64,000 bases of DNA. It comes from Yponomeuta sedellus (taxonomy: Eukaryota; Arthropoda; Insecta; Lepidoptera; Yponomeutidae). The position numbers and the translations under genes are program-made. Below are positions 4,064-63,533 of the stretch, piece by piece. The notes under the pieces were generated by a model. That model was not told the origin of the DNA and did no database searches. It saw only the letters and a program-made list of their open reading frames with translations. Each line of letters begins with the position of its first letter. Within the stretch, counting starts at the first letter, position 1. Location of the stretch: contig OW203724.1 in assembly GCA_934045075.1 (NCBI GenBank), positions 18,591,143 to 18,655,142 on the forward strand, read 5' to 3'.

Positions 4064-4074
4064 CGTCTAAATGA

Positions 4075-6193: not shown

Positions 6194-6204
6194 CGTCTAA
6201 ATGA

Positions 6205-8696: not shown

Positions 8697-8920
8697 TATA
8701 CTATTTTTATTTTTTAATGCACTAACCCGTGCTAAGGACAATTTTAAAAACCTATTTAGAGGCGTAAAATTCCACCCATGCCGGGACTCGAACCCGCGAC
8801 CTCTGGCGATATCGTTCCGATGTAAAAACCTAACTGCAAAGTAGGTAGTCGGGGCTGTAAGTGATGCAATCTATTTCAGCCAGATGTCGCTGCCTGTACG
8901 TAATACAGAGAATTGCAGAA
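8697..8920 (-). repeat. Partial tRNA-like element between two genes
   Basis: The element's AT-rich tail (TTTTTAATGCACTAACCCG), a truncated reverse tRNA-like core (8773 to about 8808) and the internal module (CTGCAAAGTAGGTAGTCGG ... CGCTGCCTGTACGTAATAC) lie between the 349-codon ORF and the start of the giant-protein gene. The core is cut short in the anticodon region and joined directly to a plus-strand module, so the copy is internally deleted. It contributes open frame just upstream of the ATG at 8975, but that frame is repeat-derived and I do not treat it as coding. Confidence 0.8.
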
Positions 8921-21754: not shown

Positions 21755-24700
21755 GTATGTATAGCTTATTTATGTGAAGAAATGTAATTCCATTCAATTC
21801 TGCTTGATGCATAAACAAATATAAATATAATAAGATTTTACATCTATTTTAGGTGACTTATAATAAAGCTTAAAATTAAAGAAAAAATGTAGAGTTCCTT
21901 GTTAGCTTCGTAGTGCTATCCTATAAATAAAGTAAATCCTTAACTGTAGTGCTATCTCATTGAATTTCCCAGAAAAGAGCCTGACAGAATCTTACTTAAG
22001 TATTTACTTAGTGAAATTCTCAATTCAGAAACCGCCCCATATGCTAACTTTGACGTTCAAACATTTTGTTGCTTTTCTGGTTGTGAGTGTATAGAGAGTA
22101 CGGGCTTGATTACCAAGCGTGCCCACCAGGGATTAGCTGTTACAAGCGCTGAGGTATTGGCAGACCTCTTACACACGGATTACTTCACAATGTTTCCCTT
22201 CACGGTAAGCGAGTGGTATTGCAACTTTAAGTTCACAGTTGTACATAACATAGAATACAAAGTCATTGGAACATGTCCGCACGGGAATTGAACCTGCGTC
22301 TCCCGCTTAAGAGTCCACGATTTGTTCTTCACTGTCAATACCAAGTGCTAGTCCTGCTACAACTTCACAGATACACACAACTTAGAATTGGTACACGCCC
22401 GTACTGGGAATTGAACCTGCGTCTCTCGCTTAAGATTCCACGATTTTTTTCTTCACTGTCAATACCGGGTGCTAGTGCTACTATAACTTCACAGATACAC
22501 ACAACTTAGAATTGGTACACGCCCGTACTGGGAATGGAACCTGCGTCTCTCGCTTAAGAGTCCACGATTTTTTTCTTCACTGTCAATACCGAGTGCTAGT
22601 CCTACTACAACTTCACAGATACACACAACTTAGAATTAGTACATGCCCGCACTGGGAATTGAACCTGCGTCTCTCGCTTAAGAGTCCACGATTTTTTTTG
22701 TCACTGTCAATACCGGGTGCTACTCCTACTATAACTTCACAGAAACACACAACTTAGAATTGGTACACGCCCGTACTGGGAATTGAACCTGCGTCTCTCG
22801 CTTAAGATTCCACGATTTTTTTCTTCACTGTCAATACCGAGTGCTAGTCCTACTACAACTTCACAGATACACACAACTTAGAATTAGTACATGCCCGCAC
22901 GGGAATTGAACCTGCGTCTCCCGCTTAAGAGTCCACGATTTGTTCTTCACTGTCAATACCGGGTGCTAGTGCTACTATAACTTCACAGATACACACAACT
23001 TAGAATTGGTACACGCCCGTACTGGGAATGGAACCTGCGTCTCCCGCTTAAGAGTCCACGATTTGTTCTTCACTGTCAATACCGGGTGCTAGTGCTACTA
23101 TAACTTCACAGATACACACAACTTAGAATTGGTACACGCCCGTACTGGGAATGGAACCTGCGTCTCTCACTTAAGAGTCCACGATTTTTTTCTTCACTGT
23201 CAATACCGAGTGCTAGTCCTACTACAACTTCACAGATACACACAACTTAGAATTAGTACATGCCCGCACTGGGAATTGAACCTGCGTCTCTCGCTTAAGA
23301 GTCCACGATTTTTTTTGTCACTGTCAATACCGGGTGCTACTCCTACTATAACTTCACAGATACACACAACTTAGAATTGGTACACGCCCGTACTGGGAAT
23401 TGAACCTGCGTCTCTCGCTTAAGATTCCACGATTTTTTTCTTCACTGTCAATACCGAGTGCTAGTCCTACTACAACTTCACAGATACACACAACTTAGAA
23501 TTAGTACATGCCCGCACGGGAATTGAACCTGCGTCTCCCGCTTAAGAGTCCACGATTTGTTCTTCACTGTCAATACCGGGTGCTAGTGCTACTATAACTT
23601 CACAGATACACACAACTTAGAATTGGTACACGCCCGTACTGGGAATGGAACCTGCGTCTCTCACTTAAGAGTCCACGATTTTTTTCTTCACTGTCAATAC
23701 CGAGTGCTAGTCCTACTACAACTTCACAGATACACACAACTTAGAATTAGTACATGCCCGCACTGGGAATTGAACCTGCGTCTCTCGCTTAAGAGTCCAC
23801 GATTTTTTTTGTCACTGTCAATACCGGGTGCTACTCCTACTATAACTTCACAGATGCACACAACTTAGAATTGGTACATGCCCGCACTGGGAATTGAACC
23901 TGCGTCTCTCGCTTAAGAGTCCACGATTTTTTTCGTCACTGTCAATACCGGGTGCTAGTCCTACTATAACTTCACAGATGCACAAACAAAAGTAGAAACA
24001 AAGTCATTGGTACATGCCCGCACTGGGAATCAAACCTGGGGCTCTCGCTTCCGAGTCCATTGTTTCTACCCACTGAGCTACCGCCGCTATTTTTAAACGA
24101 ATAAAAATATTTGAATAGAGAAAATTTTAAAACGTAAAGTGGCGCTCAGACGCTGCAATATTTGGGACAGTGTTTAGTTTAGATGGTGTAGCCGTGCCCA
24201 GCTCATAATAACAACACCATTTCAATAGAGAAAATATTAATAGGTAAAGAGGCTCAGACGCTGCAATATTTGGGACAGTGTTTAGTTTAGATGGTGTAGC
24301 CGTGCCCAGCTCATAATAACAACACCATTTAAATAGAGAAAATATTAATAGGTAAAGAGGCTCAGACGCTGGAATATTTGGGACAGTGTTTAGTTTAGAT
24401 GGTGTAGCCGTGCCCAGCTCATAATAAGAACACCATTTGAATAGAGAAAATATTAATAGGTAAAGAGGCTCAGACGCTGGAATATTTGGGACAGTGTTTA
24501 GTTTAGATGGTATAGCCGTGCCCAGCTCATAATAACAACACCATTAGAATAGAGAAAATATTAATAGGTAAAGAGGCTCAGACGCTGCAATATTTGGGAC
24601 AGTGTTTAGTTTAGATGGTGTAGCCGTGCCCAGCTCATAATAACAACACCATTTCAATAGAGAAAATATTAATAGGTAAAGAGGCTCAGACGCTGCAATA

Positions 24701-27700
24701 TTTGGGACAGTGTTTAGTTTAGATGGTGTAGCCGTGCCCAGCTCAAAATAACTACACCATTTGAATAGAGAAAATTGTAAAAGGTAAAGTGGCGCTCAGA
24801 CGCTGCAATATTTGGGACAGTGTTTAGTTTAGATGGTGTAGCCGTGCCCAGCTCATAATAACAACAGCATTTGAATAGAGAAAATATTAATAGGTAAAGA
24901 GGCTCGGACACTGCAATATTTGGGACAGTGTTTAGTTCAGATGGTGTAGCCGTGCCCACTTCATAATATAAACACCCTCTCCACTTAATTGGCTTAATTC
25001 GCAGAAGAGACAACTTAGGTGCGGAGCCATCTAGGCCAAGGGTTCCACACGAGGTTTTCCTTCTCAGGTGGTGGCATTGCACACACACATACTCACGCCT
25101 GTATGTTGGAGGGGTAGTGTTGTATCACACACACACACACGCACGCACACAAACACACACATACACAAACGTACTCACTCCTGTAACCCGGAGGGGTAGA
25201 CAGAGACCAGGGACTGTCACATGCAAGATCCTGACATACTGGTCTTTCTCTTCATGATGAACATTCATGAGTAGTTGTAGCATTCACGAGTACATGCAGG
25301 TTTCGGGAGCTTTAGTTTGGTTTGAGGGGTATTGTCGTCATAAATAATAAGAATAAGAAAATACTTTATTGTACACTGGAAAAACAACAAAAACAAAATA
25401 ATTACAAATGTACATAGTACTTATTGCTAAGAGCAATTTCTTCCAGACAACCTTATAGGAAAGATTAAGCTCCATTTGTTACTGCTTTTCAGACTCTCTT
25501 AGGTTTGCTGGAAGAAATCTCGTACAGTAATAAGCTCGCATTTGTACAAGTTATTTATTATGTCATGCCATGTTATAAAAACAAATATACAACTTCCACA
25601 CAATACAGCGACTGGTACTGATCCCAATATAAGGCATACTAGGATATCCTGTGCTACGGTAAGGCGAGTACATCACAAACATGAAAATACATTCAGACTG
25701 AGGGCGTTTGTACAAATTTACGGCTACCCCGAGTGGGAATCGAAGCCACGACCTTCGGCGTGGTATCCAGGCGCGGTGCCGCTAGACCAACGAGGCAGTC
25801 AAGTTTTAATATTTCGTGTAGTTAAAAGAAACGTTTATGTGTGTATCACGCTAAAGCAGTTTTTTAAAGCTCTTTGTAGAAGTAGCTGTATTTCATTTTA
25901 ATCAGCTTTTTCTACAAGTCAACAAACCGTTCATATGAAATCATTTTACTTAATAAAGTTGTTTGCTCGTCCTCGGGTCCTAGGTCGTCCATTAATCTCA
26001 TTAATTCATGAAATATCACCAACTCCAACTCTATCAAGTTCTTAATAATATTAATAAGAATTGCTTACACCCAGAGAAGTGAAATACGGATACGGTAGAT
26101 TTCATTTTTTGAATGGCGAATTATACATTCGTAATTAGTATTTACTCCAGCTCCAGAAGCGCTCGTAGCCTAGTCGAACTGAGTTATTGGAATCAATCAT
26201 TTGAGTTAAGTAACAACAGGTGGCTGATGGGTGACCATCACGTCTGGCATTTTTCGGAGCGCTTCCGTGCTTCACAAGGCACGTTAAGCCGTTGGCAACG
26301 GCTGTCATGTAATGACAGTCGTTTAGCCATGTCAGAGCCCTTATGGGCGGCTTGATAATTTCTGACAGTAAGGCCCCCACCAACCTGGACTTGGCCCCCG
26401 TGGTGGAGTATGGCCTAACCTTCCTACGATGCAGGAAGAGACTGGTGGCCCAGCAATTGGGACATACATGAGTTGATATGGAATCAGTATTCACGGTCTG
26501 ATACCATTCGCAACCAGCGAGTCCCTGTAACCAGGCCCTAGATCATTCCACTGCATTGTAGTACAATGACGATTACAGGATCGTGGCGATTTCATTTCAT
26601 TGCTGACTAAGCCTTCCCTTCTAGGCCAATGGTATAAAAAAACGTCACGTGACGCGTCCATTTATCTATCATTGAAGTGTAATGCACTAACAGGATGAAG
26701 GCCTAGGTCGTCAGACCATCTGGGCCTCGATTCTGTTAGTGCATTCTAGTACCGTGACAGATACATGGTCGGTTCACGTGACGTGTTTTTTTCATACCAT
26801 TGACGCCTGGATGGTTTGATGTATGTACGCGCCTAGAATTGATGCAGCAACGAAATGAAATCGCCATGTTCATGCCATGGTCATTGTACTACAATGCGTT
26901 AACGAATCTAGGCCATGGTGGGGGCCTACATACGCTATGTCCGGTCCGTGGTCGCCAGGTCAGAACTTTTTCGCTCCAAAGGGCATCAGCATGGTTTTCC
27001 GTGAAGCTTGGAAAACCATGCTGGAGGCCTATGTCCTGCAGGCGGCGTCAAATGGCTGATGATGATACACAAAATAATGTTTTATGTGTTTTATACACAT
27101 GTGTGGCACGGACATTTGTTACTATTGTCACATAAAATGTCCGTGTCACACATGTGCACACTCATGTGATCACTTGAACTTCTGTCTGGCGCCGGCATTA
27201 GTAGGTATATAAGTGTAAGGCATCCGCTGCAAATCAGCGCCGTGGCTCAACCATGGCATAAATCTGAGCGGAGACCTTTTTGGTACATATACGTGTTAAG
27301 TTTTATGTGAAGTTTGTCTTATTGTCATTTTACGTGCCAAACAAAGATTATTCTATTCTATGATAATGAATATTATTATGTTCGTTATTATTCACTGATG
27401 CCGGTAGTCGCCCATTGGGAGAGTTCAGTTGGGAGAGCGCTGGCACGGTTAGCCAGAGGTCGCGGTTTCGAGTCCCGGCATGGGTGGAATTTTTAGCCTC
27501 TAAATAAGTTTTTAATTTAAAAACCTATTTAGAGGCTAAAAATTTCACCCATGCCGGGATTCGAACCCGCAACCTCTGGCTATCCGTACCAGCGCTCTAC
27601 CAATTGAGCCAATGGGCGACTCACGACATCAGTGAAATTTCGAACCTCTTTACAATATTCTCTGTATTACGTACAGGCAGCGACATCTGACTTAAGCAAA

Positions 27701-30700
27701 TTGCATTACTTACAGCCCCGACTACCTACTTTGCAGTTAGGTTTAACATCGGAACGATATCACTGTACCCACATGATTACACTATTTTTATTTTTAATGC
27801 ACTAACCCGTGCTAAGGAACAAATTTAAAAAACTATTTAGAGGCTAAAAATTTCACCCATGCCGGGATTCGAACCCGCAACCTCTGGCTATCCGTACCAG
27901 CGCTCTACCAATTGAGCCAATTTGTTCCTTAGCACGGGTTAGTGCATTAAAAATAAAAATAGTGTAAGTTTTTAATGTTAATTACGTCATTTGCGTTTTC
28001 GACTGTAGCTGCAGCTTACAGGGCTAACAGCTTACGACCTCATATGTTTTGAAAATAATATATTTCTGTAATATAAAATTACACATTTGATTTGTCATCA
28101 TGCTGACGCTGGCTCATTTTTGAGACAGCCTTATTTAAAAAACCCAATTACACTAAAAGACTCCTATAGGCGTTTTATTTAATCTGTGCTTACGTCTTTT
28201 CCTTGTAAAATCTCCAGACTATTTTTTAGTCGTTTTAAGCTTAAAGCATTGAATAGTATATTGAGATATCTGTGGTTTTAATACGTTTTGTAAATAAGGC
28301 CCGTTGAGGTAGTACTTGCTATAATGGGTTCTTCGGTATTGATCAATTTATATTAATTTTATTGTGTAAAATTGTTCTGTGTCCCAGACTTTATTGTTAG
28401 TGCTGATCCGTGAACTGTTATATAAATAAAAATAGACTGGATAATTATATAAAAACAAAAAAACAATCAAGTGCTGTCCTGTCAACAATAATAATAATGT
28501 TATCAACCCTTTGTATGTCTCCACTGCTGGGGCACGGGCCTCGTCCTGCAGTAAGCAGTAAGGCCATACTCCACCATGGGGGCCAAATCCGGGTTGGTGG
28601 AGGAATGTAAGACAGTGGCAGTCCTTACTGTCAGAAGTTATCAAGACCCCCATAAGTCCTCCGACTGGGCTTAACGACTGCCATTGCATGACAGGCGTAA
28701 AGTGCCTTACGAAGCACGGAATCGCTCGGAAAAAATACCACTAGCGGCAGTCACCGGATGGTCAGCAATCCATCACCTGACCGCGCCTGCTCATGCTTAA
28801 CTCAAGTGATTGATTCCAATCACTCGGTTCCACTAGGCCACGAGCGCTTCGAGCGAATAATAATAATACCTATCTACTTCCAGGTCTAGGCATCTGCAAC
28901 CTGAAGTACTGCCTACTGTTTGCGTGGTTCCTCATCGCGTCCATCATAGAAGCCATCGGGTACTCGTACATACTTCCTGCAGCGAGATGCGACTTGAACA
29001 TGAGCGACTCCCAACGTGGGCTTATAGGCTCATTGCCCTACATAGGTAAGGGGCCTTTGAAAGGACGGTAACTGTAATGTTTGACATTAGTAGATAATTT
29101 CTAAATATAACTCGTCAGCAAAGCAAGTGAATGCGGAATTATGTTCATCGTCAGGCTATACTAGTCCACTGCTGGACATAGCCCTCCCCTAAAGAGCGCC
29201 ACCTTGAGCTATCATAGGGGGTAATGCCCATAAAACCCATGCTGGGCATGCGGGTTGGGAATCGCAGTTCGGTGAAATTGTACTGCAGTGGGCGCTGCTG
29301 CCCACCCCCGGTTTGTGTCCCTTAGTCGCCTTTTACGACACACGCGGGAAGAATTGGGTTGGTACTACTATTCTCTAGGCCGACACCACACAGCAAGTTA
29401 CTTTTCAGCGGAATTATGTTACTTTTTTATTATATTATTTTAACGTTGACACCAGATGACGCAACCAAGGCAGGCCCTCCACCAGATGGTCTGTAGACCT
29501 GCTTACGGTGGCGGCAAGTCGTTGGTTGCGGACACAAGACCGTGGAGCATGGAAAACCATGAAGGAGACCTATACCCTGCGGTGGGCGTCAAATGGCTGA
29601 TGATGATGATGAACGTTGACACAACGTCAGCATAAAAAACTTTGGTCTTTCCATCTACCTAAAGAGAAGTTATAGCTATGGAGGAGTTATAGCCGGCAGA
29701 TATGACTGCCCTGTCATGTGGTCGATGGAACAGTGGCATCTCAAATAGTGGCTACGCAAAATATTTTATTTTATTTATTTGTTATTAAGTGTATTATTTA
29801 AAACCGTACTGGTTTCTTCATTTTAAGTTTAAAGTTATTTATTTACTTATTTATTATTATATATCACTATTGTAATTTATTTTGTTTCTTTTATTGTTAA
29901 TTAATTTTAATTTTAAAAAATATGGATTTAATGTCTGAAATAAATATATTGAATTGAATTGAATTTATACAGCGTCTAGCTTTCACTCACACTGGACGGG
30001 TGGAGGGACTACTCGGATGATGTAGTGACCGTGACTTTGTTCTTTAGATGGGGTAGGCTTGACCGGCACCTACACCATCAGCAAAGTCGGCCTAGTCCAG
30101 AGGAAAGCAAGTCAACAGGTGCAGAGTCAACTCAGCCACGGCTTTCCTCACGCTACTACCCCGCTACTACGAATTCGCATTTGTACTTTACACACATAAA
30201 AATATTCAGAAAACACAGACAAAATATAAATTAAATTATACTTTACTAGCTGTGTCCCGCGGTGTTACCCGCGGTTTATCGATTTTCCCATGGGAATAAG
30301 ATATTTTCGCAATCGCTTTAATCCATTAATCGGCGCTGAAGTATAAAAATCTCAGACACTTAGGTTTCCTCACGATATTTTCCTTCAGTTTATCGCGTGG
30401 CATTGCCACTACAACTATACAAATGTAGGTACTTAACTTCGAGAACAAAGTCATTGGTACATGCCAGGATTCGAACCCACTACCTCGCGAATTTGTGGCC
30501 GACGTTAAGGTTATCATGAGTAATTAATGGAAAATATTAGTCAATTTCTGCCTTCCTGGGTTGAGTAAGCAACAACACTTAAATTTATTAATAGCAGAAC
30601 GACATTATATTGAGTGAACAATGTAGAGTAAAAGTAATATTATTAATTCCTACTTTGAACAATTATTCTCTCGTTGATCTTGAACGCTATGATGTTGCAT

Positions 30701-33700: not shown

Positions 33701-36700
33701 CCTTGTAAAACCTCTGTCCCTATCGTATTCAATGTTTCAAGGAATATTGTTTTTACAAATAACGTCGCTAATCTTTAGGTTATATATTAGAGTAAATCTG
33801 TAGCAAATATCTCGTATTAGTTCTGTAAAAATTTTATTCACCTAGGTGTTGACCCAACTAATAAAATTTATAACTACTTGCTACTTTTCAGCCTAGCCTG
33901 TCCCTCAGCGATCCCGTACGCATTCATTGGAGAGGTGCTCCCGCGCAGATATCGGGACATAGCCTTATCTCTCACCAATGCTTTGCAGATGTTTGGTTCC
34001 GTGCTACTTCCACGTGAGTTCCTTTCACACAATATGACCATCATTAACAATGATCGCAAGACAGGTAGATGTCAACATACACACAATATTTTATGTTCTA
34101 TAATAAATGAATCGCTCAATGTGTTGGTAAGCGCAAATCTCGAAAGCAGATGAACCGATTTCGCTAATTCTTTTTTTAGAATATTCCTTGAAGTACGAGA
34201 AAGGTTCTTACGATGAGAAAAAAAAATTAAAGAATCGACTGTTTGGCGCTACGAACTTCGCTGGTTCAGCTAGTTGTTAAATAGATAGACTATTCTTTAT
34301 TGTACACAAAAATTCTTAATCTCAAAAATTTATCGTTCTTCTATTGTTAAAAAATATTGCACTAAATGTAATTTTTATTTTATTCTACCTGGCGCTGGAA
34401 TAACAACACTGCGTCACGGTGGGAGCCTCTTAGTTTTCGTTCTGCTTAATTTATACCTGGGACCGTTGTTGGATGTGCCTTGACTGTTTTATCGTTCTAC
34501 TAGATTTCTTTGTTTTGCTATTAAGGACCTAGGACCGTTGTTGGATGTGCCTTGACTGTTTTATCTTTCTACTAGATTTCTTTGTTTTGCTATTAATTAG
34601 CCTACGACCTATTCTCAGTCCTAAGATATACACACAAAAAAATCCTGGAAATGGGTGATGCCGTTTTGAAGAAGTTCTATAATAAACACTGTGGCACTTG
34701 ATTTTTATATATTACATTAGACCGTAAAAAATATATTATTTAGGCTTCTTATTCCTGTGGTACTATCCCCTATCAGAGGTCAGTTATCAATTTATCAATG
34801 TGGCCACCATGAACCGTGATGTGGCGGTTCGGAACAAATGGATGGTGCCTACCAACCTGAAACCTTGACTAAAACAACTACAAAAAAAATATTTTAATTT
34901 GAGTTCTCATGGACATAAAAAAGGCTGTCGACCATAATGTTCTACCTCTGCAACACAGTAACAATATAGGATTACATGATTACAAATCGATATGATGGAA
35001 GGTAGATGCTGGATGCGGCAAGCTGAAGACAGGGCGCTATGGCGCTCATTAGGGGAGGGTTATGTCCAGGAGTGCATTAATATAGTCTGAAGAAGAAGAG
35101 AAGATGATGGAAGTGAAGACAGTGTCGAAAATACGTATTAATCTTCTAGTCCTGGCCTGGGCGATACTGCCTTTGGACCTCAACGCTAACTTCGGCTCCT
35201 ACCAATTCCGATCTTGGCGGCTGCTGACCATCGTGTTCTCGAGCTTCATGCCCATCGCTGGGTTCCTGATGATTCTCTGCCCGGAGAGCCCCAAGTACCT
35301 CGTGGCGCAGGGACGCCACGACGAAGCTCTGGAAGTCCTCAGAAACACGTACGCTCAGAACAAAGGCGAGTCGCCAGACGAATTCCCTGTGAGTATCTTC
35401 TTTTTCTTCTTTGATCCCTTTACTCCTGCGTGGAGTGTGGGGCGCACAGGGCTTTCAATGTATCTCTGTTCATGGCTAGGGATGGTAGCTTCAGCCAAGT
35501 TACTCCCTTCACCTTCGCTTTAGTATAAGTATTTATTTTTGGGTACCTATATATGTACATTGTCATTTATGTATATGTTGTTTGTATGTATTTAGTTGTA
35601 TAAGTATTTATTTTTAGGTATCTATGTATGAGATTATATAAATATATGTACTTTGTATCGTAGTAAGTACCTACGATATATTCGGTAAGTAATTATATTC
35701 TCGCATTTTTTTGCTATTTGGTATCAATACATTTTCGATTTCATTATTTATGTACATGCACGTACCGACTATATTCTTCATGCAATCCACTCCATTCAAA
35801 GGTTGTCTGGAAGAGATCGCTCTTAGCAATAAGACCGCCAATTGTATAACATCACTTAGATTTAAGAAATCATTGTTGTATCCCTTTTTTCTGGTTGTGC
35901 AATAAAGTGTTCCCTATCTATCTATCTTAGAGAGATCGGATCTTTTCAACGTCTGGGACGGTATTCCCGGTCTAGTATCTTGATACTTTGAATTGGCTGA
36001 TTGCAGACGCTTTCACCGGTACCTAATACGCGGTGGTAGCGAAGCAGTAGAATGCCGGTTTGTCATTCGGGAGGTCGTTGGTTCGAATTCCGGCATGTAC
36101 CAATGACTTTGTTTTCTCAGTTACGTACATTTGTGAAGTTATAGTACTCGCTAACTTTGAAGGAAAACATGGACGGAAAAATCCCGAGATACTAAACGTC
36201 GTAATTTAAATCGATTTAACATTTAAATACCATGCTAAATGACAGTCGTGTTGGTCGATGGATGACAGTTGACAAACAAAACCGCGTTTGTGGGTTCGAT
36301 TCCCACTCATGGCCGATTTGTACAAATAGCCTTAGTTTGGGTGTATTCCCATGTTTGTGATGTCGTGACCTGGTTACTATAGCACAGGGTATCCTAATTT
36401 GGGATCAGCGCAAGTGATTGTTTTGGATGAAAGTTATGTATTTTGTACGTATGTTACACATTCTTGCAAAGTAGCCAGTAACGAAATTGCCAAGAGTTTA
36501 CACATCTGCAGGTACACCTTTATAGATGTGTCTAGTAACTATACAACGACTGGACTCTCTAAGGTTTCCTGGAAGAAATCTCTTTCAGAGATAAGCTCGC
36601 CTTTGTACTTGTAATTTCCTGTTAAATGTTTCGTGTGCAATAAAGTGTAATCGACGACCTCTATGGCGCAACGGTAGCGCATCTGCCTAACATGCAAGAA

Positions 36701-39700
36701 GTCCTGGGTTCGAACCCCGGCTGGGGCAAAATGCATGTCTGTGATGTCGTTGTTCCTAGTTCCCACGACACAGGATACCCTAATGTATGTGCCTGTATGT
36801 CAATGTTCGTTCGTTCGTTATCAACCCTTGTATGTCCCCACTGCTAGGGCACGGGTCTCTTCCTGCATCGCAGAAAGGTTAGGCCATGCTCCACCACGGC
36901 GGCCAAGTCCGGGTTGGTGGAGGATTGTAAGACAGTGGCGGGCCTTACTGTCAGAAGTTATCAAGCCGCCCATAAGGCCTCTGACATGGCTTAACGACTG
37001 CCATTATATGATAGCCGGCACCAACGGCTTAACGTGCCTTGCGAAGCACGGAATCGCTCGGAAAAATGCCACTAGCGGTAGTAAATGTTATGTTATGTTA
37101 ATTAATACAGCTATTATATTATACTGTATGGAATCAGGCGTTACTTTGCGGAAATAATAGCATTAAAATGTGAAAATGACTTTGCTGAATTCCGCCAAAA
37201 ATCCCACAAGCACCACGCGGTGAGTTAATGCACCGCCCTCCCTCCCACATTTTCAAGCAGAAGCAAGAGATAAACACACCACCACCGACACCAATACTTC
37301 TGTGACAAAATACGCATATTTGCTTGTGCTTGGGGGATTTTTGGCGAAATTTAGCAAAGTAATTTTCACATTTTAATGCTATTTAATGTTATACATTTCA
37401 GGTAAAAGCCCTCATAATACCTGACAAAGACCCGACTAAGCCTTCGAGTTTCGTGTCGTCGCTAAAGAACCAAACTCTGCCAGTTTTGAGGCCTCCATAT
37501 TTGAAGTGGTTGTTGTTGAATGGAACTTTGCTGTTCGGAATATTTTCCACGTAAGTAGAAAAGGTCTCGACGACTGTCACCGCTGCCAATACTAGGTAAA
37601 TTTAAAAACCTATTTAGAGGCTAAAAATTTCACCCATGCCGGGATTCGAACCTGCAACCTCTGGATATCCGTGGATATCCTGGCACGGATATCCAGTCGG
37701 ACCGAGGCGACTGTAGAAAAAAAAATGTTTCCATTTTCTCTTTATAAATAGAATGTTCCAGGCACTTCAAATAAATTAAATAATACAAAATTTTACACCG
37801 TTGGAGTAAGCGTGTTCTTGAGTGGAGAACGCGACTCGGCAAACGTAGTGTAGGGCGACCTCCGACCAGGTGGGATGACGATCTGTGATTTCTGCGAAAA
37901 ACTGCAGGCAGATGCTGGATGCGGCAAGCTGAAGACAGGGCGCTATGCTCATTAGGGGAGGGCTATATAATATAGCCTGAAGTAGAAGAAATTTTACAAG
38001 AAAACTTTCCAAAGTCGTAGAATCATACACACATACATAACCACACGCCTGTATACCAGAGGGGTAGGCAGAGAACAGGGACTGCCACTTGCCGCAATCC
38101 TAACAGATCACCTTCGCTTCATCAACATTCATAAGTCGTTGCATGCACGCACGCCGGTCCCGGGTACTTTGTATCTAGAATACATTTTACTTCGTAGAAT
38201 CAGCCAGTGACAAACTATATTTATCGTGATTAGAGGTAACTCAGGCAAACTTGCGCCGCCGACTCTATATCTAGGACTATATATCTGCTTATCCTAGGGT
38301 AAGCCCTACTTTTGCACGGAGTCTCGAAGAGATCGCTTTTAGTGGTAAGACCGCAAGTGGTTGGCTATGAAACCTGAGAAGTTTCGTATGCTTTTAATAT
38401 GGTTTTAGTATGCATGATTCGCAATAAAGAGTTCTAATCACTTACTTTTTACTTAGTTCGTTTATAATGAGTTACTTTTGCGTTGCAGGGTCCATAATCA
38501 TGTCGAGGACTAATATTTGTATTGAGACTAAATATGGAGTATACATGAAACAATTTACGATTCAAGCTTTAACTAATGTAATCTTTATTCAGTAAATAGA
38601 TCCGATAACATCTTGCAAAGCCATCCATTAATTAAATAGATGACTGGCAACCTTGTCACTTAGCTATGTATTCGATTATGTTTGAATACGTATTTATCTC
38701 CTTACTTACAGTGACTTGACGCATGTCCCCTTAAGGGGCTCCATCCAGTAACACTAGCGCCACCAATGGAAAAAAAAACATATTATTTTTACGGATCGAT
38801 ATTGCAAAAAGTGCCAGACGAATCTCTCAATAATTTTAATAGTGATATTTAGCACGACCAACTGAAATATCTAAGTCGAAAAAATTTTATTCACTGTAAA
38901 ACAAAATGTTTACCTAATGAACGTCAAAGCCGTTAGTTTCACAATTAATAATCAACTATACTATTTTTATTTTTAATGCACTAACCCGTGCTAAGGACAA
39001 ATTTAAAAACCTATTTAGAGGCTAAAAATTTCACCCATGCCGGGATTCGAAATTTCACTGATGCCGGTGAGTCGCCCATTGGCTCAATTGGTAGAGCGCT
39101 GGCACGGATAGCCAGAGGTTGCGGGTTCGAATCCCGGCATGGGTGAAATTTTTAGCCTCTAAATAGGTTTTTAAATATGTCCTTAGCACGGAAGAAACTC
39201 TATATTTATTCTTCTCAAAACAGGTTTCCTAGGATCCTAGAATCTTGGATCAAGGTCGTTTTTTAGTGTTATTTCTTTCTAGTCCTGGACTTTTTGCCTC
39301 AGGTCATGGGTCTTAAAAATTACTATTGAAATGATTAGTAAATAAGTGGTTCAGAGATTGTGTGAGTGAGTGAGTACGTTATTTATTACTCACAGAGGTA
39401 TTAGAACACAACGTATGTACAATTTGAGTAATCAGGACTTATTTCTGTTGTTTCTTTTCATTTATGTTACTGGACGGAACCCCTTAAGCGAGCTAGTTAT
39501 TTAAGCGGAGGGTAACGCAATTAGTAAGCGTGTCTGATCGTTTTGATATAAATAGTATCAAATTAGTTGCCCAAAAAATCGTGGCATTGATTTCGACTCA
39601 AATACTGCCGCACTTTCGTCTCCGCCGTAACTTTAATATAAGTAATAAGTAAATCATAACAGGTTACGTGAGATGAAAGTTTTTGATTGACTTCTACTTA

Positions 39701-42700
39701 ATTCTTATACTTTTACTTAACTTGTACTAATAATATAATAATAGTAATAATTCGTTTATTTCAAGTATATAATACCAAGTATTTAATTATATTATTTTTA
39801 ATGCACTAACCCGTGCTAAGGACTATGTACCTACTATGTAAGTAATTATTAATTTATCTGAGTTTCCGATGTAGGTATCTGCACGCTTTTACCACCCTTG
39901 TTGATCTCAATCGGTGGTGATCGTGTAACCACGAATGTTACAAATTACAAAAAATAACCGTGTTTTCCGGATTCGGTGTGCTTAATAATTAGGCGCCTGA
40001 TTCCCAACTACTGTAACTGCTACCGGTCGAGGGCGCCATAAAATTTAATATACGCCTATACTGGCGCCCATATAAATTATGTAAATTCTGCCGGCCTCTG
40101 GTGTGAATCGAAACCACGACCTCTGTCTTCGTAGTCACGTATTAAACGATACATTTATATGTTTCAGGTTGAATGGACTAACAATGTGGGTGCCAGACGT
40201 ATTAAATCGAGTCCTGTCGGGCAGCTCCGATGATGCAATGACTGCATGTGCAATCATTAGGAACGGTCTCAACGAGGTACGAGTCACTGTATTAAACCCA
40301 TACTCTTAGAGAAAATGGGTTTAATACCCAATACATCACCTTGCGTGCCCACCGCGGATTATCAATTTTAGCGCTGAGGTATGTGACACCTCAACTACTC
40401 AGGTTTACTCACGATGTTTGCACATCATGCACATTCCCACTACAAATACAACTTCACATGTTGGGTTTCGAACGTATAGGCTGGAAAAAAAATTACAACA
40501 ATCATTACTGTTAAATTGGCTCAATGAGATAAACATCGCCAACCCTTTCTACTTTCTCTATTAATCTACATATTAATTAAACTACAATCTCATTAATAAG
40601 TATTTCTGTGAAATGCGTTTTGGATATCTTTTGAACGAACACCTACAGTACCGGCCACGACTGTGCAGGGGTAGAATATTTTTTAGTGATATTGTTTATT
40701 TTAAGCACTTGCTTAGCTCAAATGATTGAAACCAATCACTTGAGTTAAGCAACAACAGGCGCGGTCAGGTGCTGGATGGGCGACCGTCCCGTAACTACCG
40801 CTAGTGGCATTTATCCGAGCGCTTCCGTGCTTCGCAAGGCACGTTAAGCCGTCGGTACCGGCTGTCATGTAATAGCAGTCGTTAAACAATGTCAGAGGTC
40901 TTATGGGCGGCTTGATAACTTCTGACAGTAAGGCCCGCCTCTGTCTTATAATCCTCCACTTGGCCCCCGTGGTGGAGTATGGCGTAACCTTCATGTGATG
41001 CAGGAAGAGACCCGTGCCCCAGCAGTAGGGACATACAAGGGTTGATATTGTATTGTTTATTTTTCTTATATTAACTACCTGCTTACTACTAAACAACTGT
41101 ATCAAAGTAATTTGTTTTAAGTTATACTATTTTTATTTTTAATGCACTAACCCGTGCTAAGGAACAAATTTAAAAACCTATTTAGAGGCTAAAAATTTTC
41201 ACCCATGCCGGGATTCGAACCCGCAACCTCTGGCTATCCGTGCCAGCGCTCTACCAATTGAGCCAATGGGCGACTCACGGCATCAGTGAAATTTCGAACC
41301 TCTTTACACTATTCTCTGTATTACGTTTATTTTTAACTATTTTTATTTTTAATGCACTAACCCGTGCTAAGGAACAAATTTAAAAACCTATTTAGAGGCT
41401 AAAAATTAGTCGCCCATTGGCTCAATTGGTAGAGCGCTGCCACGGATAGCCAGAGGTTGCGGGTTCGAATCCCGGCATGGGTGAAATTTTTAGCCTCTAA
41501 ATAGGTTTTTAAATTTGTTCCTTAGCACGGGTTAGTGCATTAAAAATAAAAATAGTATAATCATGTGGGTACAGTGATATCGTTCCGATGTTGAACCTAA
41601 CTGCAAAGTAGGTAGTCGGGGCTGTAAGTAATGCAATTTGCTTAAGTCAGATGTCGCTGCCTGTACGTAATACAGAGAATAGTGTAAAGAGGTTCGAAAT
41701 TTCACTGATGCCGTGAGTCGCCCATTGGCTCAATTGGTAGAGCGCTGGCACGGATAGCCAGAGGTTGCGGGTTCGAATCCCGGCATGGGTGAAATTTTTA
41801 GCCTCTAAATAGGTTTTTAAATTGGTTTTAAGTTCCTTTTATGACTTGGTCGACTATGTATAATTTCGACAAATATCACGTCCAAAATACATTAGCATGA
41901 TTGTGAAATTGCGATTGAAGTACCTAGTTTCTTTTATCATTAAAAAAACTACATTTACATATATACTATAACAAATATAATATATTACAGGTAATCATTA
42001 ATGAATAGAATGATAACATTAATTCATAATAAAATTAAAATACGATAAAAAGGATGATGCTCAGCCGAAATGTACCTACCTAATCTGTGAGAGATCAATA
42101 CAACGCTGATTTTCAGCAAACCCCTATTATGGAGTCACCCCACATTCCTGAGCCTTTTCTGTTAATGCATTGTAGTACAACTATGTTTGAGCATCGCGAA
42201 TCAATAAGAAATACTAGGAGAACCACAGAACATAAAAAAAGAGTAGAAGTAGCGACATGACACATTAGTACGAAAACCAGTGTAACCAAACTGATACTTA
42301 TAAACCAAACGCACACTACGAATGCCGAGCTGCCATTGGTAAATAAATTAAATGCCGAAAAGGTGTACATCATAAAAGTTTCAATTACAATATGCACCTT
42401 TTCATAATGTTAACAATGATCAAAGTCAAATGACAATGATGAAATTAAGGTTGACATTTTGTAGTAACGCTACTCTACACTAGATGGAACTACCGCCGTG
42501 TCGGACCGAAAAGAACTTTTACCTACTAAGACATAAAGGTCAAAATTGAGAAACAAGTACATTCTCAGTATGGGATGGGACAATGCGAGTTCTAGATTGT
42601 CGATAGGGAGAACCTATCGACAAATTATACCCGTACAAACAGTTTAACACATTAATGGCCGAATACGAATACTGGTACTTAGAAGAATTTTTAGCTATTT

Positions 42701-52321: not shown

Positions 52322-52330
52322 TCTTATGAT

Positions 52331-53936
52331 TTTAAAAACCTATAATAATATCCACCCATGCCGGGATTCGAACCCGCGACCTCTGGCTATCCGTGCCAGC
52401 GCTCCTACCAACTGAGCTAATGTTGTAAGGGCTGCAAGTGATACAAATTACTTCAGCCAGATGTCACTGCCTGTACGTAATACAGAGAATGTTGTAAAGA
52501 GGTTCGAAATTTCACTGATGCCGGTGACTCGCCCATTAGCTCAGTTGGTAAGAGCGCTGGCACGGATAGCCAGAGGTCGCGGGTTCGAATCCCGGCATGG
52601 GTGGAATTTTTAGCCTCTAAATAGGTTTTTAAAAGGGTTCTTCCACGTAGTCAAACTATTTTGTCAAACTGATTTGACCACGTGGAAAATTCGTTCCTCG
52701 TAGTCAAATTAAAGTAATGATCCTTCCTGTATAAGATTTTAAATGCCAAAAAGTACAGTCAAACTATTTTGTCAAACTGATTTGACCACGTGGAATTATC
52801 TTTCCGCATAGTCAAATTAGTAAAATGCCCTTATTCCGTACCGACCAACTAAACGAATCAACTAGTTGTTCCGATCGAAACTCAATAGGTGGTTTTATTC
52901 CTGTCGGACTTCTCAAATCAACCATATTAAGCTTATATAAGAGTTCCCAACGGAAACACTATGAAGTTTTATCTTCACGGAACAACTCGTTAAAAAAACA
53001 ACAAAATAATAAACTTCATGCTTACGTATCTATTTAAATAAAAAAATATCAACTTAACTAAACTTAAATCTTTGTGGCGTACTAAATTCAGTACATAGGT
53101 ATTGGCGGGCATTCACTACAAGTAAAAAAAATCAAACATGTACCTACTTATTGGGTTGTTTTCTCGTGGTCCCATTATTTTGTCCCGTTAACGGGTCCAC
53201 GAGGCATGGTTATCCCTCGTGGTCCCGTTAGTAAAAATGATGACTCCTGTGTAAGAATTTTCACTTGTCTGTCGCGTTTCTCTCCTCATCCCGATACTCA
53301 CTTTCCTGAATATTATTTGTTTAATTGTTACTGTTTCATTTTAGAAATGAAGTACTGGGATTGCATGAAGTCATGGGTAGATATTGTATATTTGATTAGT
53401 CCGAGTCGAGTTTCGATGTTGGATAAAGTACTAGGCTCTCACGAAAATGTAGGAGTTAATTTTTATAAATAGTTTATCTATCCTAGAATTTAAAAGTAAT
53501 TTTCTTAATGATTCGCGATGCTCAGTTATACTCACGCATGCCCATCGTGGGGATTATGGGCATTACCCCATATAAAGAATAAGACTTTATAGTTGTTCCG
53601 TTGGGAACTCTTATATAAGCTTAATATGGTTGATTTGAGCTCCGATCGGAACAACTAGTTGATCAGTTTAGTTGGTCGGCACGGAATAAGGGCATTTTAC
53701 TAGTTTGACTACCTACGCGGAACATAATTCCACGTGGTCAAATCAGTTCGACAAAATAGTTTGACTGTACTTTTTGGCATTTAGAATCTTATACAGGAAG
53801 GCTCATTACTTTAATTTGACCACGAGGAACGAATTTTCCACGTGGTCAAATCAGTTTGACAAAATAGTTTGACTACGTGAAAGAACCCTTTTAAAATTGA
53901 CCTTAGAACGGGTTAGTGCATTAAAAATAATATAAG
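52331..53936. repeat. tRNA-like element interrupted by a DNA transposon
   Basis: The left part has a minus-strand core (52353-52422) and a plus-strand core (52531-52603). The latter is the best match to tRNA-Ile seen here (GCCCATTAGCTCAGTTGG, GAGGTCGCGGGTTCGAATCC). The element's AT-rich tail resumes only at about 53894-53930, after the nested element. The direct repeat TCTTATGAT at 52322-52330 and 53937-53945 brackets the whole, showing that the DNA transposon came second. Confidence 0.85.
52634..53893. mobile_element. DNA element with inverted repeats of about 300 bp
   Basis: The left end GGGTTCTTCCACGTAGTC and the following TCAAACTATTTTGTCAAACT recur inverted at the right end (AGTTTGACTACGTGAAAGAA). 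Homology extends over roughly 300 bases on each side, to the GATCGGAACAACTAGTTG region. It is flanked by TTTTAAAA on both sides, a candidate 8-bp palindromic target duplication within the host tRNA-like tail. Two short internal frames (52825-53037, 53206-53472) have no transposase motif I recognise, so it is probably non-autonomous. Confidence 0.82.
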
Positions 53937-53954
53937 TCTTATGATGATATTTGT

Positions 53955-54957: not shown

Positions 54958-57900
54958 TCCGTAAGTGGATATTTTTAGATAATGCCGCAGAACAATAACT
55001 ATTGTATTAGGAAGAAATGGATAACTATCTGTCAATAACATGCCATGCGCTTGATTCTCCAGAATCGTGTCGAGATATTCCCATCTTCAAACAAAAAGAA
55101 AACTTTAAAATATTAACTCAAAACATTAGAAGTTTAGGCCGAAACATAGATTCATTTACAGCTTTTTTACAGCGCTTGGAACTTTCATTTGATTTAATTG
55201 CACTCACAGAGTGCTGGCTCACTAGTACTCATATTCAAAAAATTCCCGGCTATAACTCATACTCCAGCTCAAAATTTGTTAACAAATCAGGTGGAGTAGT
55301 GGTATATGTAAAAGAATGTTGGAACGTTAATGTTTCTGAACCGCCCCTAGATGACGCCCAATGTCTTTTAATTAATTTTCCCAACAAAACTACTGTCCTC
55401 TCAATTTACAGATCCCCGTCATTTGAAAATACCACTCGATTCATGACATCACTAGACTCTATACTGACATCTCAAAGTGGAGTTCAGAATCTATTTATAA
55501 CAGGTGATCTAAACATAGATACCCTTAAAGACTCTACTCAGAGTTCAGAATACCTCTGCTTACTGGCCGAACACGGACTAGTGCCAGCAATTAACAAACC
55601 GACCCGTAAAAAAACATGTCTGGACCACATATTTGCCAAATCGAAACTCCATCTGGAGACTATAGTTTGTAACTCATCCATTACAGACCATGATATAGTT
55701 ATGTGCTCTATCGCGCATGGCTCTACACACAGGGCAGAAAAATCTAATATTAAGGTCGATTTCCCGGCAATTCTCAACGAGCTCCAGGCGACAGACTGGT
55801 CAGATGTTTATACTGATAATTCTGCAGAATCGGCAGCCTCTACCTTCTCTCAAAGAGTCAGCAACGCACTAGAAAATAACACAAAAATTACTAAAATTAG
55901 TCACTCGAAACGAATCCTAAAACCATGGATCACGCCGGGGCTTTTGAGATGCATGAAACACAGAGACCGACTGCACGCTAAGCTCCGGAAAAATCCCACT
56001 GATCAGTTTGATAGAATTATGTATACTCGCTACAGGAACTTCTGCAACAAGCTATTGAAAAAAACTAAAGCATCCTACTTTAACCAGCAATTCGCAATTA
56101 ATAAGCATAATTCTAAAGGATTATGGAAGACTATAAAGATATTATGCAATAAATCTGAAAATAGGACTTCCGCTATAGATTTACTAACAACCGATACTAC
56201 GGTAAAAATGTCACTGAATAAATGCAATTCTACCTTCGTATCAGTGGGCCCTAAGCTAGCTGAAAATACTCTTAAGAAACTAAAAACAACCCAGGAACAC
56301 TTAGCAAGTCAAATTAATATCTCGAACACACATCACTCTTTCTATATGGATCCAACTGATGAGATGGAAGTAGCTGCTCTCATAAACTCTTTAAATGACA
56401 ACAGTGCTCCTGGAATAGACGGCATAGGTAATCGACTGGTAAAGCACTGTATAAATACCATTATAAAGCCGCTCACCTACATATTTAATTTAAGCCTATC
56501 AACCGGAGTCTTTCCTAAGTGCTGGAAACTTGCCGCGGTAATCCCCATATATAAATCAGGATGCAAAAAAATCGTAACTAATTACCGCCCTATCTCCCTT
56601 TTAAATGTCTTTTCAAAAATATTAGAAAAAACTGTAAATAAGCGGTTAGTAAATTATTTAGAATCAAAATCGATACTCTCCCCTTACCAATATGGCTTCA
56701 GAAGTGGTAAGTCTACGGATGATGCAGTAGCAGCTCTTGTGGAAACGGTGTCGAATAATCTTGATCGGGGAAAACCATGTATAGGTATTTTCCTCGACTT
56801 GGCAAAAGCTTTCGATACCGTTTCAACAAGCTTACTCTTGGAAAAACTTGCTAGGTATGGTGTTAGAGGAATTGCAAATGACTGGTTCACTAGCTACCTA
56901 TCTGTAAGAAAATAGATACTAAGGGTCGGTGATTTTTACAGTGATCCTGCTGAAAATACGTACGGTATCCAACAAGGCAGCACGCTGGGCCCAACCCTGT
57001 TTATAGTTTATGTTAATGACGTCCTCAACTGTATCGATGATAACACAAACACAAAAATACTCTCCTATGCTGACGATACAGCTTTAGTTTTCAGCGACGT
57101 TTCTTGGAATACAGTACAATCCAGAGCCGAGACAGGCCTAGCTAAAATAAACTCCTGGCTCTCCCATAATCTTCTTACACTAAACCCTGTCAAAACAAAT
57201 TTCCTATGTTTCCATAAAACCAAAAAGACGGATTCGGTCACACCTCAGCAACTATTATTACACAACTGTCTCAAGAACTACACATCCAGACCCTCTAACT
57301 GCACATGTGCTGACTCCATAACTAGGGTTAGCTCAATAAAGTATTTGGGAGTACGCATTGACGAAAAGTTAAATTTCAATGACCATATTTCTGTAGTTTC
57401 AGCTCGTGCTAGGAAATTAATCTCTCTCATGAAAATGATGCGGGATGTAACGGACGTTACAATACGCAAACTAGTGTATACTAGTCTTTGCGAATCGGTT
57501 TTGTCATACTGCATATCTTCTTGGGGAGGCGCTGCAAAGACACACATTATTAAGCTAGAGAGGGCCCAGAGATCAATATTAAAAGTCCTATATAATAAAT
57601 CATATAGACATTCCACCCAACTACTCTATGCAGAGTGCAAAGTGCTGACAGTACGACAACTGTTTATACTCAGGTCGGTTCTGTCAGCACATCGTAGACT
57701 CCACACTTCGCCTGATTACGAGATAATTAGAAGTAAACGTGTCTGTCGTCTTCCCACTCCAGCTATGCATACCACATTTGGCCAACGTTTTGCCCCATTT
57801 CTTCAACCATTCCTATTTAATAAAATAACTCTTAATTGCGATATAATAGAGTCCACAGTAGCTTGTGCTAAACAAAAACTCAAACTGTATCTCAATAGCT

Positions 57901-58550
57901 TAAACTACTCCGAAACTGAAAAACTATTAAATACTATTATGTAGGTGATTCCTATAGAAAAATAAAAATAAAAAATGCTCATCTTATAAAAATACAATTA
58001 ATAAAAAATATACTTGAAAAGACTATAATTATGTATGTGTGTATATGTATATATATATGTATGTATGTATATGTACTTGTACATGTATGTGTTAATATAC
58101 TATAATATATATTCATAAATATACATATATCTATAAGAATATTATTATCTCATCTTGCGTATATATATTTATGTGCATGCATTTGTATGTATATATATGT
58201 GTATAAATATAGATTATATATTATTAAATATATCTAAAATAAGTCATAGTATAATATACATTTTTACCCTATTTATCAACGTTATATTACATACACACTT
58301 TCTGTTAGTACTATACTATGTTACTAGAGTTAAGCAAAATAAATCTTTGAATAAATTGAAAATGTAAAATGTGTATAAAACAAACCATAAACGGTAAGCG
58401 CCAACTAATCTTAATGTTAAGCCTTCCTCTGATTACCACCGCACAGACTTACATCTAGTGTGGTAACCAACGTAAAACAAGCTTGTAATCCTTTTCTTTT
58501 AAATAAAACATTTTGTATTTTTTTTTTGTATTTTTGTATTGAACCACGGT
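54958..58550 (+). mobile_element. Near-intact LINE (non-LTR retrotransposon, CR1-like group)
   Basis: The element lies between the 14-bp direct repeats CACGGATGTCAAAA (54944-54957 and 58551-58564), a candidate target duplication. A short 5' leader precedes the endonuclease/reverse transcriptase ORF (55017-57944). The 3' region has TATG-type microsatellite sequence (about 58025-58210) and ends in a T-rich (TTTTTGTAT) tail. No gag-like ORF1 is visible, so the 5' end is probably truncated or this subfamily has only one ORF. Low decay suggests a fairly recent insertion. Confidence 0.8.
55017..57944 (+). pseudogene. LINE endonuclease/reverse transcriptase ORF with one in-frame stop
   Basis: The product is an APE-type endonuclease followed by a reverse transcriptase. 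Endonuclease landmarks are TQNIRSLGRN, TECWL, a GDLNID motif and SITDHDIV. RT landmarks include NSAPGIDGIGN, YRPISLLNVFSKILEK, FLDLAKAFDTVS (first catalytic Asp), IQQGSTLGP and SYADDT (catalytic pair, about 57068), then an SSIKYLGV block and a C-terminal region. The frame stays open from 55017 to a TAG at 56913-56915 (residue 633). It then continues in the same frame to TAG 57942-57944, so one nonsense codon inside the RT domain is the only visible lesion. The first 632 codons alone would lack YADD. Group assignment (CR1/Daphne-like versus other Jockey-clade groups) is tentative. Confidence 0.85.
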
Positions 58551-58716: not shown

Positions 58717-59081
58717 AGAAGCGCTCGTGGCCTAGGCGAACCGAGTGATAGGAATCAATCACTTGGTTAAGCAACAACAGGCGCAATCAGGTACGGGATG
58801 GGTGAGCGTCCCGTGACTACCGCTAGTGGCATTTTTCCGAGCGCTTCCGTGCTTCGCAAGGCACGTTAAGCCGTTGGTGCCGGCTGTCATATAATGACAG
58901 TTCTTAAGCCATGTCAGAGGCCTTATGGGGGGCTTGATAACTTCTGACAGTAAGGCCCGCCACTGTGTTACAATCCTCCACCAACCCGGACTTGGCCCCC
59001 GTGGTGGAGTATGGCCTAACCTTCCTGCGATGCAGGAAGAGACCCGTGCCCCGGCAGTGGGGACATACAAGGGTTGATAAC
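58717..59081 (+). mobile_element. 5S-like SINE, reference copy
   Basis: The best-preserved copy of the family. It starts AGAAGCGCTCGTGGCCTA. Next comes a segment resembling the internal promoter half of 5S rRNA (GTTAAGCAACAACAGGCGC, then GGATGGGTGAGCGTCCCG). An unrelated 3' module follows (GTCAGAGGCCTTATGGGG, TGGAGTATGGCCTAACC, GACATACAAGGGTTGATA). It is bounded by the 11-bp direct repeat GTACCATAATT (58706-58716 and 59082-59092). The 5S similarity makes this a SINE3-like element. Other copies in this window are at about 17.7, 20.4, 20.9, 21.3, 26.2, 28.5, 31.2, 36.8 and 40.7 kb. Confidence 0.9.
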
Positions 59082-59860
59082 GTACCATAATTCAGTTGTT
59101 CGTACCATGTACCATGATACATCCATTATGGTACGCGAAAGCACCATAATTTTGTCATTTTTACATCACAAACACTTTTGCATCACATATTTTCATCTTT
59201 CGCTTTTGCTGTTGACGAGTTTTTTTTATATACCGATATCTAGCAACAGTAAAAAATCATTCATTCATTTCGTTGCTGATAATCGTTGATAAGAACGTTC
59301 ATATCTGAGATAGTTTTTGTAGTCTGGATTGTAAGTGAACTTCACAGGTGAACTTTGAGTAGCTTTATCGGTAATTTTTGTTCAAAAAGTTGAACTTAGT
59401 CAAAAGTAGCGAATAGCACAGATTAAAAAGAAAAAAGCGAGTAGTGTTCGTTTGAAGAATTTATGAAAATTCGACATAATTTTAATACTTTAAATAATAG
59501 TAACCTACCTAATTTATTAAATCCGTAAGAGTTTTCCCACCCGTACCTTATTTTGTCAAAATTACCATAATTTTGAGCATCTGGTGCCATAATTCAAGAG
59601 TTGGCATCTAGCACTCTGCCGCCATTACGCTCCAGCATAGATACAGTGCGTTCACATTAACTTGACGCGTGAGAGAATTGGTAGCACTGAGATGTTTACT
59701 GTTACCATGTTAAATAAGAAATCATTCCCATTACTTGGGGAAAATAAAAGGATTGAGGGCTTGTTTTACCATCTTCCGATTAGGTCCAAAAGCAAATTCA
59801 CATGTTATGTCCTTGTTACCAACAGTGTTGTTTGTTTGACACAAAAGAAAATTTTAAGAA

Positions 59861-62582: not shown

Positions 62583-62594
62583 ATATATAATGGA

Positions 62595-63521
62595 TTACAC
62601 TATTTTTATTTTTAATGCACTAACCCGTGCTAAGGAACAAATTTAAAAACATATTTAGAGGCTAAAAATTTCACCCATGCCGGGATTCGAACCCGCAACC
62701 TCTGGCTATCCGCACCAGCGCTCTACCAATTGAGCCAATTGGCGACTCACGACATCAGTGAATTTTCGAACCTCTTTACAATATTCTCTGTATTACGTAC
62801 AGGCAGCGACATCTGACTTAAGCAAATTGCATTACTTACAGCCCAGACTACCTACTTTGCAGTTAGGTTTAACATCGGAACGATATCACTGTACCCACAT
62901 AATTACACTATTTTTATTTTTAATGCACTAACCCGTGCTAAGGAACAAATTTAAAAACCTATTTAGAGGCTAAAAATTTCACCCATGCCGGGATTCGAAC
63001 CCGCAACCTCTGGCTATCCGTACCAGCGCTCTACCAATTGAGCCAATGGGCGACTACTACATACAGAGAATATTGTAAAGAGGTTCGAAATTTCACTGAT
63101 GTCGTGAGTCGCCCATTGGCTCAATTGGTAGAGCGCTGGTACGGATAGCCAGAGGTTGCGGGTTCGAATCCCGGCATGGGTGAAATTTTTAGCCTCTAAA
63201 TAGGTTTTTAAATTTGTTCCTTAGCACGGGTTAGTGCATTAAAAATAAAAATAGTGTAATCATGTGGGTACAGTGATATCGTTCCGATGTTAAACCTAAC
63301 TGCAAAGTAGGTAGTCGGGGCTGTAAGTAATGCAATTTGCTAAAGTCAGATGTCGCTGCCTGTACGTAATACAGAGAATATTGTAAAGAGGTTCGAAATT
63401 TCACTGATGTCGTGAGTCGCCCATTGGCTCAATTGGTAGAGCACTGGTACGGATAGCCAGAGGTTGCGGGTTCGAATCCCGGCATGGGTGAAATTTTTAG
63501 CCTCTAAATAGGTTTTTAAAA
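62595..63521. repeat. Inverted tRNA-like element with two divergent pairs of cores
   Basis: Two minus-strand cores (62672-62743 and 62980-63051, 308 bases apart) are followed by two plus-strand cores (63111-63182 and 63419-63490, again 308 apart). The 12-bp direct repeat ATATATAATGGA at 62583-62594 and 63522-63533 borders the whole. The loops are GGA-type. The last core has GAGCACTGG for GAGCGCTGG, and the first has CGCACC in place of CGTACC. Confidence 0.92.
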
Positions 63522-63533
63522 ATATATAATGGA

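Follow-up and report, generated by a model that had tools for sequence, protein, structure and literature searches.

Introduction

Inserted copies of Penelope-like elements (PLEs), in the portions of the literature cited here, contain direct and inverted pLTRs and partial tandems, and a 31-bp tail is optional on one inverted pLTR (PMC3846280). The copies are flanked by duplications of 8 or 10 bp, some having none, and in rotifer PLEs palindromes are common at the inverted junction (PMC3846280). In vitro data for the anole PLE protein showed that it cuts and extends both target strands and prefers AT-rich DNA (PMC11167929). In the portion of that work cited here, reverse transcription starts at two adjacent internal RNA sites, the interval between them constituting the tail, and the start site shows no apparent difference between strands; the cut site of the hammerhead ribozyme, which is typical of PLEs, lies upstream of the start sites (PMC11167929). 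The second-strand synthesis and the head-to-head inserts of Penelope elements are still an open question.

Short non-autonomous Penelope elements were mentioned in heliconiine butterflies (PMC6685494). Metazoan retrozymes are described, in the cited portion of their account, as non-coding repeats of 150–450 bp with a GC content below 50%, for which PLEs were proposed as helper (PMC7229834). Helenus, a TRIM, carries tRNA-like sequences in its LTRs, has a PBS and a PPT between two LTRs, and is flanked by 4–5 bp duplications, again according to part of its description (PMC10886601). Here, we describe a 308-bp repeat family of a 64-kb window (the whole stretch of DNA analyzed), which is probably a non-autonomous retroposon mobilized by PLE machinery, with a tRNA-like core at the place where PLEs carry a ribozyme.

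The 308-bp Unit and Its tRNA-Like Core

BLAST searches located pieces of the 308-bp unit, which has a tRNA-like core, at ten loci, lettered A to J; all counts given here come from the single 64-kb window, and unit coordinates are counted from window position 4969. An eleventh match (30460–30486), covering 27 nt of the B-box region, was excluded as too short. Each of the 15 tRNAs predicted in the window by ARAGORN (seven Tyr, eight Ser) falls inside the family, and among 20 matches to the Rfam tRNA family just one (36657–36728) lies outside it. The core occupies approximately unit positions 197–273. With a loose consensus, an A box and a B box 44–45 nt apart were found in 19 of the 20 cores checked, and in 19 of 20 the core is followed on its 3′ side by two runs of at least five T, the second of which directly precedes the arm end named end1 below. 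One example is the plus-strand core at 63109–63184 (A box TGGCTCAATTGG, B box GGTTCGAATCC), recognized by ARAGORN and Rfam and by the box pattern. Folding of the tRNA-like core gave a z-score of −1.60 against shuffled sequences, and the region around the tail folded no more stably than its shuffled counterparts (z −0.14 to −0.32). It is possible that hairpin transcripts arise from the back-to-back putative pol III-type promoters of the inverted copies. Comparison of unit copies revealed no obvious sparing of the tRNA part by substitutions in old copies.

The unit has a GC content of 0.42 and contains no ORF, with stop-free stretches of the tandem unit reaching at most 34 codons in the sense and 65 codons in the antisense orientation. 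A telomerase-like RT/GIY-YIG ORF is thus absent from it, and neither a PLE protein nor an autonomous relative was seen in the window. No hammerhead was found in the unit on either strand by the core pattern, although minimal PLE hammerheads could slip past both this pattern and Rfam, and a search of positions 4600–5600 against Rfam at E values of up to 10 yielded no ribozyme. Apart from tRNA, the highest-scoring Rfam hit was to a microRNA precursor family and covered the inverted center of locus A; its 37.1 bits fall below the gathering score of 94, and it was taken as chance. Since tests of the unit revealed neither the enzyme nor the ribozyme, the family is left outside PLEs proper and is at best a non-autonomous derivative. 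Pattern scans of viral and bacterial/archaeal contigs found no relatives of the unit, which carries little weight for an animal repeat.

Other tandem repeats occur in the same window. Approximately 14 tandem copies of a 124-bp unit at 22265–23984 include a tRNA B-box-like half (reverse complement CGCAGGTTCAATTCCC, by eye). This array is adjoined by a fuller tRNA-like stretch at ~23997–24090, for which there is no ARAGORN call, and by eight tandem copies of a 108-bp unit at 24109–24976.

Architecture of the Insertions

Most arms of the inserted blocks stop at one of two positions. The first, end1, reads ...GGTTTTTAA(A) or close variants and lies at unit position ~300–304; the second, end2, reads ...AAATAGTGTAA or variants and lies at ~36–44 of the next unit, so that the two are ~47 nt apart. 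The interval is referred to as the tail.

The original prediction described two minus-strand and two plus-strand tRNA-like units in one inverted block at 62595–63520 (locus I), flanked by a 12-bp repeat, and this was confirmed. The repeat ATATATAATGGA is present at 62583–62594 and 63522–63533 and encloses a minus-strand arm of 1.5 units with its outer end at end2 (62595–63055) and a plus-strand arm, also of 1.5 units, with its outer end at end1 (63061–63520). The inverted repeat has arms of 414 bp that are 98% complementary. The three further loci predicted to have direct repeats of their own do have them. At locus A, CGTCTAAATGA (4064–4074 and 6194–6204) flanks an inverted minus-strand arm of 1.9 units that includes the tail and ends at end2 (4075–4661), followed by a direct plus-strand arm of five 308-bp units ending at end1, without the tail (4661–6193). 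These 2 + 5 units show zero differences across their overlaps, and for this reason locus A is considered young on sequence grounds. At locus G, GTTTTAAGTT (41114–41123 and 41825–41834) flanks two successive inverted arms on the minus strand, each from end2 (41124–41407), and a plus-strand direct arm of 1.35 units that stops at end1 or at most 4 nt off (41408–41824). The second inverted arm thus restarts at end2 within the block, a pattern to be expected of a template jump.

At locus H, TCTTATGAT (52322–52330 and 53937–53945) flanks a minus-strand inverted arm ending at end1 (52331–52422) and a plus-strand direct arm (52429–52633), whose remainder with the tail (53889–53936) reaches an older variant of end2 that is 6 nt shorter. 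The block at 52.3–53.9 kb has the duplicated flanks that were predicted, but it is not one continuous insert, being split by an inverted-repeat element without match to the unit. This MITE-like element (52627–53896) sits, by eye, at a TTAA/TTTAAA site, and its 176-bp arms (52627–52802 and 53721–53896) are 97% complementary.

All four predicted duplicated loci are real; the list was incomplete, and a fifth block (27517–27966) and a single-headed copy (6388–6422) were added. The fifth block, locus C, consists of a 1.3-unit minus-strand arm that stops at end1 and, on the plus strand, an arm of 48 bp that stops at end2; its duplication TAAGTTTTTAAT occurs at 27505 and 27965, overlapping the right element end. 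It inserted into an older plus-strand copy of the family (27391–27516) at that copy's own end1, hinting at a preference for the AT-rich end of the family itself. The single-headed copy, locus J, is strongly 5′-truncated, lies on the plus strand and ends at end1; its duplication TTAAACATTAAATTA at 6373 and 6419 is 15 bp long, of which 4 bp are shared with the element end and 11 bp are unambiguous. Two head-to-head copies are without a duplication detectable by the same repeat test: the old locus B (8697–8913), with its left arm running to end2 and its right arm to unit position 160, and locus E (38957–39185), with its left arm running to end2 and its right arm passing end1 and stopping elsewhere. 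The remaining two are minus-strand pieces, a truncated copy ending at end1 (locus D, 37602–37672) and a tail-only fragment ending at the older, 6-nt shorter variant of end2 (locus F, 39787–39822). Partial tandem repeats in both direct and inverted (head-to-head) orientation are present at loci A, C, G, and I; loci H, B, and E also have head-to-head arms, all of them below one unit.

Long inverted repeats with perfect arms are well known to cause rearrangement and mis-assembly, and this favors explaining the blocks by local duplication, inversion or an assembly artefact of a tRNA cluster. Against it, the ten loci differ in length, divergence, and flanks, six of them have a target duplication, and one is nested in an older copy; we regard such an origin as highly improbable.

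Target Duplications and the Majority Form

Target duplications of 9–15 bp at AT-rich sites were found in six of the eight loci tested (A, C, G, H, I, and J), with element boundaries set by the analyst and the truncated pieces D and F left out. Within the head-to-head blocks they measure 12 bp (A), 12 bp (C), 10 bp (G), 9 bp (H), and 12 bp (I), the repeat of locus A being 11 bp if the base common to the element end is subtracted. By chance, with equal slack, a repeat of at least 9 bp appeared in 0.4% of 20,000 random position pairs from the window. The original prediction preferred target-primed retrotransposition to a DNA transposase, and the former is indeed the better fit. It had also been set beforehand, as a test, whether head-to-head is the common form. 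This turned out to be so for five of the six copies that carry a target duplication in the window; the sixth, locus J, is single-headed and likewise has a duplication of its own, but single-headed copies are not the common form there.

The duplications bear on the relation to Helenus as well. If the family were a Helenus-type non-autonomous LTR element, with the tRNA-like sequence in its LTR, the presence of a tRNA-like sequence within a repeated terminal unit would be accounted for, as tRNA-like sequences are reported in the LTRs of Helenus in the cited portion of its description (PMC10886601). However, the 4–5 bp duplications given there contradict the 9–15 bp found here, and instead of the internal region with PBS and PPT expected of LTR machinery, the units abut at 308-bp spacing, as judged from the layout. 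An origin of this kind is hardly credible.

Arm Ends and Block Centers

Among 19 arm ends, placed by the analyst, eight lie at end1 (one reading AAGTTTTTAAT) and nine at end2, which gives 17 of 19 at either position; the two exceptions are the right arms of E and B. The right arm of H and locus F align directly only to unit position 29, and we assign them to an older end2 variant because they have an identical 6-nt gap before the same TATAA end; if they are subtracted, 15 of 19 ends remain. Under a uniform null model (18 ends, ±5 window), no more than 10 ends ever fell at the best two positions in 20,000 draws. In each of the five duplicated blocks, one arm ends at end1 and the other at end2. 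The probability of such a pattern is 1/32 under a fair coin and 120/945 (~0.13) when five ends of each kind are fixed, so it is suggestive and not proven.

The blocks had been predicted to be symmetric, which they are not strictly, given the unequal arm lengths and the two different arm ends. At the centers, the left and right arms start at unit positions 70/1 (A), 204/300 (C), 252/173 (E), 273/196 (G), and 196/150 (I). As the starts differ between the sides, a plain fold-back origin of the inverted arm is rejected for these five blocks, all but H and B, whose centers were resolved. The junctions show an overlap of 1, 3, and 6 bp (A, C, and E, respectively), no overlap (G), or a 5-nt filler (I). 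A palindrome, TTCGAA, is present at the junction of locus E, and none is otherwise evident on inspection of the junctions.

Arms longer than one unit occur in four of the five duplicated blocks (A, C, G, and I); neither arm of H exceeds one unit. A pol III transcript reaching from the tRNA to the T run therefore cannot be the template, and the RNA that was copied must, we infer, have been longer, whether multimeric or circular. Locus A has 34G and 108A in all units covering these positions, and both are absent from the other loci that cover them; its units also have 233T, which is found elsewhere only as the junction base of B, equally assignable to the other arm of B. Similarly, 162G is present in both arms of locus G and absent from the other loci covering the position. 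Because these locus-private variants are common to both arms, it is probable, judging from the sequences, that a single RNA, sister RNAs or one source copy gave rise to both arms of a block.

These features can be confronted with the possibility of a conventional tRNA-derived SINE, mobilized by a LINE, in which the inversions would result from twin priming. The lepidopteran tRNA SINEs HaSE, PxSE, and Metulj resemble the 308-bp family in having a tRNA-related region, with pol III boxes in Metulj, but they combine a tRNA head with a distinct 3′ tail or body, and head-to-head multi-unit blocks are unmentioned in the cited portions of their descriptions. Compatible with this explanation are the loose-consensus A and B boxes of 19 of the 20 cores, the duplications, whose lengths are LINE-like, and a LINE with EEP endonuclease and RT domains (55011–57944, with one in-frame stop) in the window. 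However, BLAST did not match that LINE to the unit, no single copy with a 5′ tRNA head and a 3′ tail was found, and no poly-A, A-rich or simple-repeat tail was seen at the arm ends. In addition, the arms extend upstream beyond the tRNA, over more than one unit in four of the five duplicated blocks, and so the template did not start at the tRNA. In twin priming, the two pieces do not overlap, and the inverted one begins upstream of the other at no fixed point, whereas the arms described here overlap in sequence and their ends are mostly fixed. The SINE/LINE explanation is accordingly quite unlikely.

A further alternative is a retrozyme-like element propagated via a circular RNA monomer, its ribozyme undetected or lost, and mobilized by a PLE or another RT. 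The unit size, the tandem layout, and the GC content of 0.42 match the non-coding tandem units of metazoan non-LTR retrozymes, as given in the cited portion of their account (PMC7229834), and the seven unit copies of locus A, which do not differ where they overlap, are in line with it. However, metazoan retrozymes are defined, in the portion cited, by a type I hammerhead, and the unit yielded neither this motif by core pattern on both strands nor an Rfam ribozyme in the interval searched; moreover, a tandem source transcript would explain the units as well. We consider the retrozyme-like element unlikely.

Proposed Integration by PLE Machinery

The mobilization by PLE machinery remains the reading that best joins these observations. 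The original prediction knew of no named family with such a structure; the layout in fact largely matches the published anatomy of PLEs. As in Penelope/Poseidon-type PLEs, head-to-head and direct repeats and partial tandems occur in one insert, the duplications are short and the targets AT-rich, a tail is optional on one inverted arm, and two adjacent internal sites are indicated for the start of reverse transcription. The differences from this group are that the 308-bp unit has no RT/GIY-YIG ORF and no detected hammerhead and has a tRNA-like core, that its tail is ~47 nt compared to 30–40 in PLEs, and that each of the five duplicated blocks has one arm end of each kind. Junction palindromes, common in rotifer PLEs, are not evident here except for the one at locus E. 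With the heliconiine Penelope elements the family has in common that it is short and non-autonomous, a comparison by mention alone, as the cited portion gives no structure.

It was proposed that the mobile unit is itself a divergent composite, which is not supported; the observations best fit a mobile monomer of 308 bp that would acquire its divergent form at insertion. A sense RNA of the unit, multimeric or circular, would be bound by a PLE protein dimer, which would cut both strands of an AT-rich target 9–12 bp apart. Each 3′ end of the target could then prime one cDNA at one of the two internal start sites, and the two cDNAs would extend 5′-ward over varied lengths, sometimes beyond one unit, to be joined via microhomology or a short filler. 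The tRNA-like core lies ~30 nt upstream of end1, and we infer that it parallels the hammerhead situated upstream of the start sites in the anole PLE. Most likely, the core would serve as an internal pol III-type promoter or an RNA-processing element, in the place that the hammerhead has in PLEs and retrozymes.

A narrower proposal is that the family is SINE-like and combines a tRNA-type pol III core with PLE-type integration, the tRNA replacing the hammerhead and each target strand being primed at its own start site. As a whole it is put forward tentatively, as a possibility. The strict one-of-each pattern is either an addition to PLE anatomy or a small-sample accident; since the anole PLE shows no apparent strand difference in the cited portion of the study, the pattern is not predicted by it (PMC11167929). 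If each strand were indeed primed at a fixed site, the presence of the PLE tail on one inverted arm only would follow, and if the rule holds genome-wide, a PLE dimer would be predicted to prime the two strands at separate RNA sites. The tRNA core, if the proposal is true, would widen SINE-like parasitism from LINEs to the third class of eukaryotic retroelements and account for spurious 'tRNA-Ser/Tyr' predictions. The block architecture has a precedent, and the interest lies in the combination of tRNA and PLE; neither a tRNA-bearing PLE nor a PLE-mobilized SINE is among the literature matches listed, which are mainly open-access and cited in part. With its exact ends and duplications, its lack of an ORF, and one or more very young copies, this tiny family offers a natural minimal substrate for the Penelope question.

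Other Open Frames in the Window

A stop-free frame of 2404 codons extends over 9857–17071 and has no Pfam match. Four other open frames (26135–26542, 36678–37157, 40713–41126, and 58759–59091) have similar translations around LLSEVIKPPIRPLTWLNDCHYM, and this likeness suggests that they may represent another dispersed repeat family.
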